A stretch of 64,000 bases of DNA, taken from the NCBI RefSeq assembly GCF_040536835.1, contig NZ_CP159578.1, positions 1,488,001 through 1,552,000 of the forward strand. The letters are read 5' to 3'. Below, one piece after another: positions 10,419-53,743 of the stretch; within the stretch, counting starts at the first letter, position 1, and every line of letters starts with the position of its first letter. The stretch is from Salinicola endophyticus (GTDB lineage Bacteria; Pseudomonadota; Gammaproteobacteria; Pseudomonadales; Halomonadaceae). The translations under genes were made by a program, and so were the position numbers. Under the pieces are notes generated by a model, which worked only from the letters and a program-made list of their open reading frames with translations, was not told the DNA's origin and ran no database searches.

Positions 10419-10967
10419 TCACATGGAGCGCGTCAGCTCGGGCCAGGCCGCGCGCAGATACTGCATCATCGACCACAACGTGAGCACGGCGGCGGCGTAG
10501 AGCAGCACCACGCCGAGAGCCGCAATGTGGGTGCCGGGGTGGAAGCCGAGCAGCAGCACCAATGCGATCATCTGCAGCGTGGTCTTGGACTTGCCGATCC
10601 AGGAGACCGCCACGCGCTTGCGCTGGCCGATCTCGGCCATCCACTCGCGCAGCGCCGAGATGACGATCTCGCGACCGATGATGACCAGTGCCGGCAGGGT
10701 CAGCCAGAAGACTTCGTAGCGCTCGATCAACAGGGCCAGGGCAACGCCGACCATCACCTTGTCGGCGACCGGGTCGAGGAAGGCGCCGAACGGCGTGCTC
10801 TGGTTCCAGCGCCGGGCCAGGTAGCCGTCCAGCCAGTCGGTGATCGCCGCCAGGCCGAACAGGCCGGCAGTCACCGGTAAACTCCAGCTGTAGGGCAGGT
10901 AGAACAGCACCACCAGCAGCGGTATGAACACGATTCTTGCCAGAGTGAGCATGTTGGGGATGTTCAT
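10419..10967 (-). CDS. pgsA: CDP-diacylglycerol--glycerol-3-phosphate 3-phosphatidyltransferase
   Basis: A 182-residue inner-membrane enzyme making phosphatidylglycerol phosphate, the committed step of PG and cardiolipin synthesis. The CDP-alcohol phosphotransferase signature D-G-x2-A-R-x8-G-x3-D-x3-D is complete at residues 44-69 ([12 protein letters not shown], then [11 protein letters not shown]). Hydrophobic segments follow the usual six-helix pattern. Length equals that of E. coli PgsA (182). The gene lies downstream of uvrC on the same strand and upstream of the tRNA operon, the order conserved in E. coli (uvrY-uvrC-pgsA-glyW). Confidence 0.97.
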
Positions 10968-11028: not shown

Positions 11029-12870
11029 TCATCCATGTAGAGCCTGGTGAATGGTCGTCGCCATCTGTTCATTGATTCCCGGCACACGTGCCAGATCGTC
11101 GCGGGTGGCCTTGCGCACCCCCTGCAGACCGCCGAAGAAGCGTAGCAGCTCGCGGCGGCGTTTGGGGCCGACACCGGGAATGTCCTGCAGCGACGAAGTG
11201 CGGCGCTGCTTGTCTCGGCGTTGGCGGTGCCCGGTGATGGCGAAACGGTGGGCTTCGTCACGAATATGCTGGATCAGGTGCAGCGCCGGCGAGCTGGTGT
11301 CGAGATCGAGGGTGCGGTCGACGGTCTCGATGAACAGCGTCTCGAGCCCCGCCTTGCGGGTGGTGCCCTTGGCCACCCCGATCAGGGTTACGCCGATGAC
11401 TTCGAGCTCGGCGATCACTTCCCGCGCCATGTTGAGCTGGCCCTTACCGCCGTCGACGATCAGGATGTCCGGCAGCTTGCCTTCGCCTTTCTGCAGCCGC
11501 TTGAAACGTCGTGTGAGCGCCTGGCGCATGGCGGCGTAGTCGTCGCCCGCGGCGACACCCTCGATATTGAAGCGGCGATAGTCCGACTTGACCGGGCCAT
11601 CGCCGTCGAACACCACGCAGGAAGCGACCGTCGCCTCGCCGTGGCTGTGACTGATGTCGAAGCACTCCAGCCGGGCTGGGGGGCTCTCCAGCGAGAGCGC
11701 CTCACGCAGGGACTCGAAGCGCCGGCTGAGCTGGCTGCGGTTGGCCAGCTGCGTTGCCAGGTGCTGTTCGGCGTTGGTCAGCGCCAGGCGCTGCCACTGG
11801 GCGCGATGGCCGCGGACCTGGGCGGTGACACGCACGCGGCGTCCGGCGCGTTCGCTCAGCGCGCTCTGCACCAGCTCGCTGTCGGCCAGCGGGTGGGAGG
11901 TGATGACCTCCTGCGGAATCTCTTTCGACTGCCCCAGGTAGAACTGGCTGACGAACTCGCTGATGAGCTCTTCGGTGCCCAGATCGAGGCCGTTCTGGGG
12001 TTGGTGATGACGCGCGCCGAGCATGCGGCCCTGGCGGATCGCCAGCACGCTGATGCAGAGCCCCCCCGGCTGCTGAGCGAGGGCGAAGACATCGGCGTCG
12101 CCCTCGGCATTGTCGACGAACTGCTTTTCCTGCAGCCGTCGCAACTGCTGGATCTGATCGCGGAGTCGTGCGGCCTCTTCGAAATCGAGTGTCTGGCTCG
12201 CCTGTTCCATGGCCTCGGTCAACTGCTGGGTGACCTGTTCGCTGCGCCCCTCGAGACACATCACGGCGTGTTCGATGTCACGCTGGTAATCCGCCTGACT
12301 GATGTAGTCGACGCAGGGTGCGCTGCAGCGCTTGATCTGGTACTGCAGACAGGGCCGCTGGCGATGGGCGAAGACGCTGTCCTCGCAGTTGCGGATACGG
12401 AAGATCTTCTGCATCAGCGAGAGGCTCTCGCGCACCGCGGTGGCGCTGGGGTAGGGGCCCAGGTAGCGCCCGTCGGCACGCTTCTGGCGCGCGCGCTTGA
12501 ACTCCAGCGCCGGATAGGGGTGGCGGTCGGTGACGAAGACGTAAGGGTAGGATTTGTCGTCGCGCAGCAGAATGTTGTAGGGCGGACGCAGCTCCTTGAT
12601 CAGCGTCTGCTCGAGCAGCAGCGCTTCCGTCTCGCTGCGGGTGATGGTCACCTGGACGTCCTGGATGCGTGCCACCAGCGCCTGGGTCTTGGTATTCAGC
12701 GCGCCACGGAAGTAGCTGGCCAGGCGCGCCTTGAGACGCTTCGCCTTGCCGACGTAGAGCACGTTGGCCTGGGCGTCGAGCATGCGGTACACGCCGGGCG
12801 ACTCGGAGACGGATTTGAGAAAGTGCTTGGCATCGAAGGGTGCCGGGGAATCGCTGGGGCTATCACTCAT
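11029..12870 (-). CDS. uvrC: excinuclease ABC subunit C
   Basis: A 613-residue protein making both incisions in nucleotide excision repair after UvrAB damage recognition. It has a GIY-YIG nuclease at residues about 18-100 (GVYRMLDAQANVLYVGKAK) and a Cys-containing stretch (CEDSVFAHRQRPCLQYQIKR). A UVR/UvrB-interaction motif lies at about 205-240 (LDFEEAARLRDQIQQLRRLQ), and the RNase H-like 5' nuclease begins near 385 (LECFDISHSHGEATVASCVV). Tandem helix-hairpin-helix motifs lie at the C-terminus (DIPGVGPKRRRELLRFFGG and ARVPGINEQMA). Length is standard. It follows gacA by 60 bp and probably shares its transcript. Confidence 0.98.
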   Translation of the reverse strand: MSDSPSDSPAPFDAKHFLKSVSESPGVYRMLDAQANVLYVGKAKRLKARLASYFRGALNTKTQALVARIQDVQVTITRSETEALLLEQTLIKELRPPYNILLRDDKSYPYVFVTDRHPYPALEFKRARQKRADGRYLGPYPSATAVRESLSLMQKIFRIRNCEDSVFAHRQRPCLQYQIKRCSAPCVDYISQADYQRDIEHAVMCLEGRSEQVTQQLTEAMEQASQTLDFEEAARLRDQIQQLRRLQEKQFVDNAEGDADVFALAQQPGGLCISVLAIRQGRMLGARHHQPQNGLDLGTEELISEFVSQFYLGQSKEIPQEVITSHPLADSELVQSALSERAGRRVRVTAQVRGHRAQWQRLALTNAEQHLATQLANRSQLSRRFESLREALSLESPPARLECFDISHSHGEATVASCVVFDGDGPVKSDYRRFNIEGVAAGDDYAAMRQALTRRFKRLQKGEGKLPDILIVDGGKGQLNMAREVIAELEVIGVTLIGVAKGTTRKAGLETLFIETVDRTLDLDTSSPALHLIQHIRDEAHRFAITGHRQRRDKQRRTSSLQDIPGVGPKRRRELLRFFGGLQGVRKATRDDLARVPGINEQMATTIHQALHG

Positions 12871-12930: not shown

Positions 12931-13575
12931 TCAATGCGTGTCGAAACCGTCGACCAGGCCGTGCTTGAGACCCAGGTGGGTGAGTTCGACGTCGGACTGA
13001 ACCTTGAGCTTGTCGAAGATGCGATAGCGGTAGGTGTTGACCGTCTTGGAGCTGAGCCCGAGCTGCTGGGAGATCAGGCTGACGCGTTGGCAGTTGATGA
13101 TCATCAGTGCGATCTGCAGCTCGCGGTGGGAGAGCTGGTCGAACGGATTGCCTTCGCCCTCGCGACGAGCCAGTACCACGCGCTGGGCGATATCGGGGCT
13201 GATGAAGCGCTCGCCGGCGGCGACCCGCCTGACCGCTTCGATCATCTGGTCGAGTGGCGTGCCCTTGCTGATGAATCCTGCCACGCCGGCATCGATCAGA
13301 CGCTGTGCCGTGGTTTCCTCGACCTGGCCGGTCAGTACCACGATGCTGACCTGGGGCTGTTCACGGAGGAGCTTGAGGATCGCCTCGAGCCCGCCCATGC
13401 CGGGCATGCGAATATCCATCAGTGCGATGTCGGGGAGCCGGTTACGGCAGGCACTCAGCGCCGCTTCGCCGCTATCGACCTCAGCGACGATCTCGATGTC
13501 GGACTCCTCGTCCAGTACGCGGGCGATACTGGTGCGAACCAGATGATGATCATCGGCTAGCAATACCTTGATCAA
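12931..13575 (-). CDS. gacA: GacA/UvrY-family response regulator
   Basis: A 214-residue NarL/FixJ-type regulator. The receiver domain occupies residues 1-120 with acidic pocket D8-D9, phospho-acceptor D54 in ALMDIRMPG and Lys in GFISKGTP. The LuxR-type HTH occupies about 148-205 (LSHRELQIALMIINC, then LGLSSKTVNTYRYRIF). Position next to uvrC and the sequence near the phosphorylation site identify the GacA/UvrY orthologue, partner of the BarA/GacS kinase, which is not in this window. In gammaproteobacteria it activates CsrB/RsmZ-type RNAs that titrate CsrA/RsmA; two candidate RNAs of that type lie near 52.4 and 53.3 kb here. Confidence 0.95.
   Translation of the reverse strand: MIKVLLADDHHLVRTSIARVLDEESDIEIVAEVDSGEAALSACRNRLPDIALMDIRMPGMGGLEAILKLLREQPQVSIVVLTGQVEETTAQRLIDAGVAGFISKGTPLDQMIEAVRRVAAGERFISPDIAQRVVLARREGEGNPFDQLSHRELQIALMIINCQRVSLISQQLGLSSKTVNTYRYRIFDKLKVQSDVELTHLGLKHGLVDGFDTH

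Positions 13576-42079: not shown

Positions 42080-42083
<4 letters not shown>
41754..42083 (+). CDS. ureB: urease beta subunit
   Basis: 109 residues starting [18 protein letters not shown], with [37 protein letters not shown] and the C-terminal [10 protein letters not shown]. Normal length. Nine bp after ureA; overlaps ureC by 4 bp. Confidence 0.98.
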
Positions 42084-43783
<1,700 letters not shown>

Positions 43784-52831: not shown

Positions 52832-53176
52832 ATGAAAAAAGGTATTGCAGTCGTCACCGCTACCGCTCTTATGCTGCTCGGCGGGGCGGGCATGGTCTAT
52901 GCCGACAGCGCCGCGATGAAGGAAGCCGAGCAGGCCAACCAGGAGCCGCTCAAGAAAGGTGACGGCGTGACCGAGTCGCAGCAGGACATGATGAGCGGCG
53001 AAAGCGAGCATCAGGGCATGGATGAAAGCGGTCACAGCGCGGCGACCGATGATGCCATCGATGCCATGCAAGAGGAGACCGATGGCAAGACCGATATCAA
53101 GAATGCCGAGGATCTCGACTCGATCAACGCTCAGGGCCAGAGCGACGCTGCTGCGGACGCACAGAAGTCCCAGTGA
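52832..53176 (+). CDS. small secreted acidic protein, function unknown
   Basis: A 114-residue protein starting MKKGIAVVTATALMLLGGAG, a Sec signal peptide probably cleaved after VYA (residue 24). The mature part is very acidic and low in hydrophobic residues (MKEAEQANQEPLKKGDGVTE, then DDAIDAMQEETDGKTDIKNA), probably disordered and periplasmic. The ribosome site is AAGGGA 7 bases before the ATG, containing AGGGA, a potential RsmA/CsrA site. It lies between two candidate RsmZ-type RNAs. No family recognised. Confidence 0.8.
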   Translation: MKKGIAVVTATALMLLGGAGMVYADSAAMKEAEQANQEPLKKGDGVTESQQDMMSGESEHQGMDESGHSAATDDAIDAMQEETDGKTDIKNAEDLDSINAQGQSDAAADAQKSQ

Positions 53177-53196
53177 TAGGCGAACAGTCTCTCTCG

Positions 53197-53222
53197 AAAA
53201 GCGCCCTGCGGGGCGCTTTTTT
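53197..53222 (+). terminator. intrinsic terminator of the secreted acidic protein gene
   Basis: AAAAGCGCCCTGCGGGGCGCTTTT stem (about 10 bp) followed by TT, 20 bp after the stop. Confidence 0.9.
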
Positions 53223-53304
53223 GTGGCATGACACCGTCTCTTCGGCAGCGTCTGGATACATAACGATACAATTACTTTGGTACTTCTTCACCTGTATCAA
53301 ATTA

Positions 53305-53466
53305 TCTGATCCGTCAGGGGTCCACAGTGTGCATGTCGTCAGGGAGACGACATCAGGAAGCGAGGCCGCAGGAAGCGGCCGGCACAGGGAGGTTTGGCAG
53401 GACGCCATGGCATTCGGCAGGAAGCCGTCACCGATTAGGGGGTTCGTACGCGGACCCTCTATTTTT
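53305..53466 (+). ncRNA. candidate RsmY/RsmZ-type small RNA (copy 2)
   Basis: About 160 bases packed with AGGA/AGGGA loops on perfect stems. ATGTCGTC-AGGGA-GACGACAT is at 53333-53353 (8 bp). GGCCGC-AGGAA-GCGGCC is at 53364-53380 (6 bp). TGGC-AGGAC-GCCA is at 53395-53407. CGGC-AGGAA-GCCG is at 53415-53427. Single-stranded AGGA and AGGGA lie between stems, and a 5' hairpin GATCC/GGGTC lies at 53308-53322. A terminator at 53437-53458 is followed by ATTTTT. This is the architecture of Pseudomonas RsmY/RsmZ. The 5' end is an estimate; TATCAA at 53295 could be the -10. Confidence 0.8.
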
Positions 53467-53612
53467 GTGTCGCCCATGACGCCATCTTTGTGTCATCCAC
53501 TCCCGCATTTTGTGCAGCCCATGAATAGCGACGCTCGGCCCTGGGCGTCGGGGCGAGATGCCTCCGGAGGCGATCCCGCGTCGTTCCGGTATGGCAGGGG
53601 CCGGATAGCGAA

Positions 53613-53640
53613 TTGACTTTGGGGCGCTCGTCCGTAAAAT
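53613..53640 (+). promoter_or_regulatory. sigma-70 promoter of tRNA-Leu
   Basis: TTGACT and TAAAAT separated by 16 bases, followed by a GC-rich discriminator (GAGCGCG), 18 bp before the tRNA. Confidence 0.8.
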
Positions 53641-53658: not shown

Positions 53659-53743
53659 GCGGATGTGGTGGAATTGGTAGACACGCTAGATTTAGGTTCT
53701 AGTGCCGCAAGGCGTGGGAGTTCGAGTCTCCCCATCCGCACCA
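53659..53743 (+). tRNA. tRNA-Leu (anticodon TAG)
   Basis: An 85-base class II tRNA including CCA, with acceptor stem GCGGATG/CATCCGC, anticodon loop ATTTAGGT reading TAG, a long variable arm and T loop AGTTCGAGTCT. No repeat of its 3' end was noticed downstream. Confidence 0.96.

Follow-up and report, generated by a model that had tools for sequence, protein, structure and literature searches.

Upstream of a tRNA-Leu gene of Salinicola endophyticus lies a stretch of DNA that, taken as a whole, is best explained as the gene of a CsrA-antagonising non-coding RNA of ~132 nt (53333-53466), a reading to which we assign a probability of roughly 90%. Coordinates refer to the window, i.e. the whole 64-kb stretch of DNA that was analysed, which spans C1:1488001-1552000 of the genome G000, unless a contig or locus is named. 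Judging from its sequence, the locus most likely encodes a CsrA/RsmA-sequestering sRNA of the RsmZ/CsrB functional class, and the RNA is a new member of this known class that falls outside the Rfam families at their thresholds. An earlier, sequence-only reading of this DNA had proposed that the RNA works like RsmY/RsmZ. This is supported by an architecture that does not arise by chance, by covariation of stems that carry conserved GGA loops, and by model matches in 18 of 18 Salinicola genomes; further support comes from the single CsrA gene of the genome, a GacA homologue in a gacA-uvrC-pgsA cluster, and the GacA boxes that precede relatives from other genera. From these features, we infer transcription of the window RNA, its start site, its binding to CsrA and the stoichiometry thereof, and the resulting sequestration.

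An array of GGA hairpins with its own terminator

The sequence-only reading described four perfect stems that close exact AGGGA, AGGAA or AGGAC pentaloops, additional AGGA/AGGGA motifs between these stems, and a terminal hairpin followed by a T tract. All four stems are present within 53333-53427 on the plus strand (with AGGGA, AGGAA, AGGAC and AGGAA as successive loops), two unpaired motifs lie between them, and a terminator-like hairpin with a T tract follows (Table 1). The start that had been given to the element, 53305, is ~28 nt too early: the RNA probably begins near 53333, and 53305-53332 is probably promoter.

Table 1. Coordinates of the predicted RNA, its promoter-like elements and associated features (window positions unless a locus is named).
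Feature	Position	Strand	Details
GacA/UvrY-type response regulator, predicted activator of such sRNAs	12931-13575	-	Response_reg + GerE
Putative upstream activating element	53255-53270	+	direct repeat GATACA-N4-GATACA, 10-bp period
14-bp dyad	53287-53300	+	TTCAC-CTGT-ATCAA; centre ~-41.5 from predicted start
Putative -10 hexamer	53323-53328	+	CACAGT; 22 nt after dyad
Predicted sRNA, ~132-134 nt	53333-53466	+	start placed near 53335; fold z -3.57; R1 match
Hairpin 1	53333-53353	+	ATGTCGTC[AGGGA]GACGACAT, 8 bp; stem covaries
Unpaired motif	53354-53360	+	CAGGAAG; between hairpins 1 and 2
Hairpin 2	53364-53380	+	GGCCGC[AGGAA]GCGGCC, 6 bp; stem covaries
Unpaired motif	53383-53390	+	CACAGGGA; CACA + GGA invariant in A1 (14 sequences)
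Hairpin 3	53395-53407	+	TGGC[AGGAC]GCCA, 4 bp; stem covaries
Hairpin 4	53415-53427	+	CGGC[AGGAA]GCCG, 4 bp; present in all four short tRNA-Leu-linked copies
Intrinsic terminator	53436-53466 (hairpin + T tract 53436-53461)	+	11-bp stem + T tract; terminator scan
tRNA-Leu (anticodon TAG), neighbouring gene	53659-53743	+	
Long sponge-like RNA	L054:1391-1698		17 GGA; tRNA-Leu(TAG) site
Long sponge-like RNA	L058:1430-1716		16 GGA; tRNA-Leu(TAG) site

The count took in every stem with at least 4 Watson-Crick pairs and no mismatch whose 5-nt loop has the form ANGGA or AGGAN. By this rule, the whole 64 kb contains five such hairpins on the plus strand, four of them at the sRNA locus, and one on the minus strand. 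When the 162-mer was shuffled 20,000 times with its dinucleotides preserved, 192 shuffles carried one such hairpin and none carried two or more. Together, the shuffles and the 64-kb count exclude a chance origin of the cluster. The predicted sRNA has the GGA-motif content of a CsrA sponge, with seven GGA in 134 nt, four of them inside perfect hairpin loops. It folds at -54.9 kcal/mol, which none of 200 shuffles reached; the wider interval 53290-53470, folded as the sequence-only reading had suggested, gave a z of -2.73, with one of 200 shuffles as low.

GGA in stem-closed loops is the recognition pattern of CsrA. With GGA pentaloops on four hairpins and AGGRA in two unpaired motifs, the RNA could bind up to about three CsrA dimers, which would take CsrA away from its mRNA targets and thereby relieve CsrA repression, and the strong terminator would end the RNA before tRNA-Leu. 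Alternatively, the GGA-containing loops could serve as seeds of a base-pairing (Hfq-type) sRNA, but we find this hardly credible, as a single seed would not need GGA to be repeated in the loops of covarying stems and in many copies.

As the sequence-only reading had claimed, protein coding does not account for the conservation of the region. Both ORFs that cover it were ruled out as the cause: one (53124-53477) lies on the opposite, minus strand and the other (53173-53616, plus strand) crosses the terminator. Moreover, in two of four orthologues the spacer from hairpin 4 to the terminator has one nucleotide less, which counts against coding. The locus had also been placed in an otherwise empty gap between a terminator and tRNA-Leu. 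The upstream terminator stood, in the form of a terminator-like hairpin seen by eye at ~53198-53222 and absent from the list of the terminator scan; the emptiness did not, because conserved promoter-like elements fill 53255-53332, just upstream of the RNA.

These surroundings also bear on whether the RNA is a free sRNA. CsrA also binds mRNA leaders, and the position of the locus between a small secreted-protein-like ORF and tRNA-Leu would allow the element to belong to a neighbouring gene, as a 5′ leader or 3′ UTR bound by CsrA. This is very improbable in view of the terminator-like hairpin upstream (seen by eye and unlisted by the scan), of the terminator and conserved promoter-like module that the RNA has of its own, and of homologues at other loci without tRNA-Leu nearby. 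The small ORF itself (52832-53176, plus strand) encodes a protein with a signal-peptide-like start (by eye) and without a Pfam match; the four closest species show the 3′ end of this ORF upstream of the RNA.

Relatives and compensatory changes in Salinicola

A DNA search of 58 relatives resulted in matches in 12 genomes, all of them Salinicola. In four of these (G000, which is the genome of the window, G004, G013 and G015) the copy adjoins tRNA-Leu(TAG), and in the remaining eight no tRNA was found in the flanks examined around the match. A core-pattern search of the genome collection gave 67 stretches: 27 from Salinicola, one on a contig of G015, and 39 in many other taxa. We then refer to two covariance models, of which R1 describes the RNA core and was built from 14 training sequences of 12 of the 18 Salinicola genomes, the window copy among them (G001, G003, G009, G012, G014 and G016 supplied none). 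R1 matches all 18 Salinicola genomes (E<=1.5e-13), partly by construction in the training genomes, because these supplied the training sequences; the same applies to the window copy, itself a training sequence, which scores 90.1 bits over 53324-53410. At the loose limit of E<=1, R1 matches 52 of 87 genomes. Scanning five of the 39 non-Salinicola pattern stretches with R1 gave 28.2 (L122), 24.1 (L140), 23.7 (L127) and 20.8 bits (L093), and no match in the fifth (L137). Several other R1 matches were discarded: a third match in the own genome (C1:2782202, E 0.27) has no sponge architecture by eye, and of the matches from other genera, L039 and L041-L044 resemble coding sequence or chance similarity, or show one GGA hairpin. 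Plasmid copies of the RNA were not found at the sensitivity of the search used.

The sequence-only reading would have been undone by stems that do not covary among relatives, and compensatory changes were found in two alignments, with the GGA loops conserved as in a CsrA sponge. In the MAFFT alignment of the 14 sequences (A1), 92.7% of cells are paired, both partners have changed in 9 of 17 pairs, and covariation scores 0.403 versus 0.237 for shuffled alignments. Two of the five A1 measures are weak, as the counts of both-side-changed pairs and of pair types are equalled by 46 and 83 of 500 shuffles, respectively. Every sequence of A1 has the GGA in hairpins 2 and 3 and the CACA-N-GGA linker, and the loop of hairpin 1 is variable. 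In the second alignment (A4; 24 sequences, including five rows from other genera), 92.1% of cells are paired, 14 of 17 pairs are changed on both sides, the score is 0.501 versus 0.189 shuffled, and all five measures lie above every one of 500 shuffles; because A4 was fitted to the model, its pair counts are inflated.

The tRNA-Leu(TAG) locus, which was found in 17 of 18 Salinicola genomes, hosts RNAs of two sizes. Six of the 17 carry a promoter module and GGA hairpins just upstream of the tRNA, four of them with a short and two with a long RNA. The long RNAs stand under the same promoter module and hold 17 GGA in 308 nt (G014) and 16 GGA in 287 nt (G009). No such module lies just upstream of the tRNA in the other 11, one of which (L209, from G012) has scattered GGA hairpins 480-812 nt upstream. 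The 12 Salinicola genomes without a copy found at the tRNA-Leu site all match elsewhere.

Two further observations concern additional RNAs. The own genome contains a second, different GGA-hairpin RNA candidate (G000:C1:996980-997320, or L049:1481-1821; R1 27.2 bits, E 0.0017) with a -10-like TATCAT and a terminator-like hairpin, both seen by eye; its DNA relatives occur in 4 of 18 Salinicola genomes, the same four that have the short tRNA-Leu copy. In addition, strong copies of the RNA come in pairs in Salinicola socius (L115) and S. salarius (L118), at distances of ~1.4 kb and ~0.5 kb; the arrangement is tandem-like, and L115 has a third, weaker match.

Putative promoter module and regulators

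A scan for sigma-70 promoters listed no consensus promoter before the RNA. In a gap-free alignment of 28 of 30 Salinicola copies, we find a dyad of the form TTNAY-N4-RTNAA, then exactly 22 nt, and then YANNGT. The pattern by which these promoters were selected (and which L106 and L083 failed) already required parts of the right half of the dyad and the form of the -10, and the columns of both are therefore circular. An equivalent dyad is found in other genera. Independent tests come from two other sets of loci. The first set consists of five loci from four other genera that R1 had found without the promoter; with the dyads placed by eye, the hexamers 22 nt past them read GAAGGT, GAGGGT, GAGGGT, TACAGT and CAGACT, keeping the A at position 2 and the T at position 6. 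The second set comprises 36 of 40 matches in the genomes G208, G212 and G168 (three of G212 were left out, as was L181, which lies 32 nt from L171). Here, NANNNT occurs at spacing 22 in 19 loci and at the next commonest spacing in 7, with the best-scoring dyad picked automatically and plainly misplaced in several. If the hexamer is a -10 element, the dyad is centred at about -41.5, which is the position of class II activators, and the RNA starts at about its first hairpin.

We consider it rather doubtful that the RNA starts further upstream, at ~53310, which would turn GGTCCACAGTGTG into a transcribed, paired 5′ segment instead of a -10 region. A GATCC/GGGTC hairpin at 53312-53326 is indeed retained in four close orthologues with one G-U change, and the invariant CAC of CACAGGGA is a possible partner of the GTG at 53327-53329. 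Conservation of that pairing is confined to three pairs, the flanking positions being paired in 6, 17, 10 and 13 of 27 sequences (in this set, row L132 was anchored at the wrong place, no linker was found for L134_236, and two rows lacked a promoter match), and a long-range GTG-CAC helix that closes the RNA is thus unsupported next to these three pairs. The constant distance of 22 nt between the dyad and NANNNT agrees better with a -10 element.

The upstream part of the module differs between lineages. The ACA of the direct repeat is present at both half-sites in 19 of the 28 aligned Salinicola promoters and at the nearer one in 21 of 28. Upstream of relatives in the genera g19 and g20, GacA boxes are found, with TGTAAG-N6-CTTACA being the UvrY sequence given in the accessible part of PMC4682653: 4 of 36 loci have a perfect box and 13 of 36 match at least 10 of 12 positions, which only 38 of 7,200 mononucleotide shuffles did. 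The window copy has no recognisable GacA box (its best, 7 of 12, is at chance level), and the repeat at 53255-53270 is not a GacA-box match. Because the window copy reaches only 7 of 12, we infer its GacA control from the relatives, by analogy. As for the dyad, several Salinicola copies read TTGAT-N4-ATCAA, and we rejected an FNR/ANR site as its established identity, as no FNR homologue in the genome scores over the cut-off (55.9 versus 228) and the dyad in other genera reads more like GTAAC-N4-GTTAC, which counts against FNR/ANR. The two Crp/Fnr-family proteins found in the genome presumably lack the FNR recognition helix.

The genome encodes one CsrA (C1:3402756-3402911), whose residues 1-58 are nearly identical to CsrA/RsmA chains of solved structures, and CsrA is present in 38 of 38 genomes searched. 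The GacA homologue of the window lies in the classical gacA-uvrC-pgsA cluster, with uvrC at 11029-12870 and pgsA at 10419-10967, followed by tRNA-Gly, -Cys and -Leu. Its best-scoring family among the 24 NCBIfam families listed for it is NF007018, at 251.9 bits in the genome search and 250.9 in the protein search, below the curated cut-off of 280. For GacS, nothing in the genome scores over the cut-off (best 265 versus 890), and a hybrid kinase with HisKA, HATPase, receiver and Hpt domains (C1:2054014-2056422) is a candidate only, by its domains. Transcription of the window RNA would probably be switched on via GacS/GacA together with a second factor at the dyad near -41.5.

Known sponge RNAs and distribution in Halomonadaceae

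In the Rfam sense, the identity of the RNA as RsmY, RsmZ or CsrB did not hold. A covariance search with the RsmX, RsmY, RsmZ, CsrB and CsrC families gave no gathering-level match in the 64-kb window, nor in sets of 14 and 20 loci that comprise the window copy and relatives. The best score was 24.9 bits for RsmX against a gathering score of 56 (E 0.0078 on 341 bases). As no gathering score was reached, we do not file the RNA in any Rfam family. This weak RsmX score does not stand out within the genome: a search of the own genome with RsmX gave 19 sub-threshold places, the best at 30.3 bits elsewhere, without the window locus among them. CsrB had no match in the genome at E<=10. Rfam also reported 5_ureB_sRNA (RF02514; 98.1 bits) at 42228-42507 on the minus strand, antisense inside an ORF at 42080-43783 (plus strand); since this ORF reads like a urease alpha subunit, the match is probably coding-sequence homology and not an sRNA.

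Each of the known sponges shares some features with the window RNA. It resembles RsmX (RF02144, clan CL00106) in its small size, its GGA pentaloop hairpins with unpaired AGGRA in between, and its 3′ terminator, but its score is under half of the RsmX gathering score, and many consensus pairs of the model are unformed in the alignment to the window. RsmY and RsmZ of Pseudomonas, which we take to be RF00195 and RF00166, are of the same size class and have the same repeated AGGA loops, and a further likeness is the GacA box that precedes many relatives from other genera; neither family gave a listed match to the window RNA, and Salinicola promoters mostly have ACA direct repeats and a dyad near -41.5. 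With CsrB (RF00018) it shares the sponge logic, and the long homologues of G014 and G009 come closer to it in their GGA number, whereas the window RNA has seven GGA in ~132 nt. The many copies per genome described below resemble Azotobacter vinelandii with its RsmZ1-7 and RsmY1-2, nine named RNAs according to the accessible part of PMC7366521 and the largest number that we found named in a paper, versus 17 model matches in G208, which are candidate RNAs only. A CsrB-like RNA of 456 nt with 30 GGA, 14 of them in hairpin loops, was seen just upstream of tRNA-Thr in G043, a genome of the same order (L055:1540-1995), and is reported by no Rfam family at gathering.

The second covariance model, R2, was trained on 24 sequences from Salinicola and from G028, G030, G035, G071 and G075, after one weak row (L130:3556) had been dropped. 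At E<=0.001, it matches 122 of 275 Halomonadaceae genomes in 10 of 24 genera, in the training genomes partly by construction, and 153 of 275 have no match at this limit. The own genome has two R2 matches. Copy number is far higher in some relatives: the 4.5-Mb halomonad genome G208 has 17 matches at E<=0.01 (L169, L171, L174, L177, L181, L183, L186, L189, L193, L196 and L198-L204), 16 of them at E<=0.001, and G212 and G168 have 13 and 10. The neighbouring G208 matches L171 and L181 may be one RNA. Every one of the 17 holds 6 to 8 GGA in its first 110 nt, two or more GGA-loop hairpins occur in 15 (one each in L200 and L204), and 13 have a terminator-like site within ~330 nt, a count made without a chance control. 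Shortly downstream of a Csr-type RNA of G168, a Guanidine-II riboswitch match was seen (L180:1843-1893).

It is possible, though we hold this tentatively, that Halomonadaceae have a separate and strongly expanded lineage of Csr sponges, with the 17 model matches in one genome, one rigid promoter module, a second activator, and an RNA body that at the tRNA-Leu site switches between RsmZ and CsrB size under an unchanged module. This module would begin with an upstream element, which in most Salinicola copies is an ACA direct repeat and in other genera a GacA box, followed by the 14-bp dyad at -41.5, 22 nt, and a degenerate -10. Two features are more unexpected: the number of copies in some relatives, and a promoter whose spacing is fixed and which has a second site. 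If this reading is true, a second signal gates the sponge genes along with GacS/GacA.

In the accessible part of a comparative table of 2020, Halomonas anticariensis is listed with GacS-GacA, '[CsrA]' and an sRNA given as 'Unknown' (PMC7366521). A Csr sRNA of Halomonadaceae did not appear in the titles and abstracts found by our literature search, with most subscription papers out of reach, and the accessible part of PMC5568370 has no mention of halomonads that we found. The RNAs presented here supply candidates for the missing sRNA link between Gac and CsrA in Halomonadaceae, and the covariance models find them where the Rfam gathering thresholds do not, while the promoter hypothesis is concrete. 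Halomonads are used for the production of polyhydroxyalkanoates and ectoine, and storage polymers and exopolysaccharide are frequent targets of Csr control. Therefore, these RNAs may also be practical handles.
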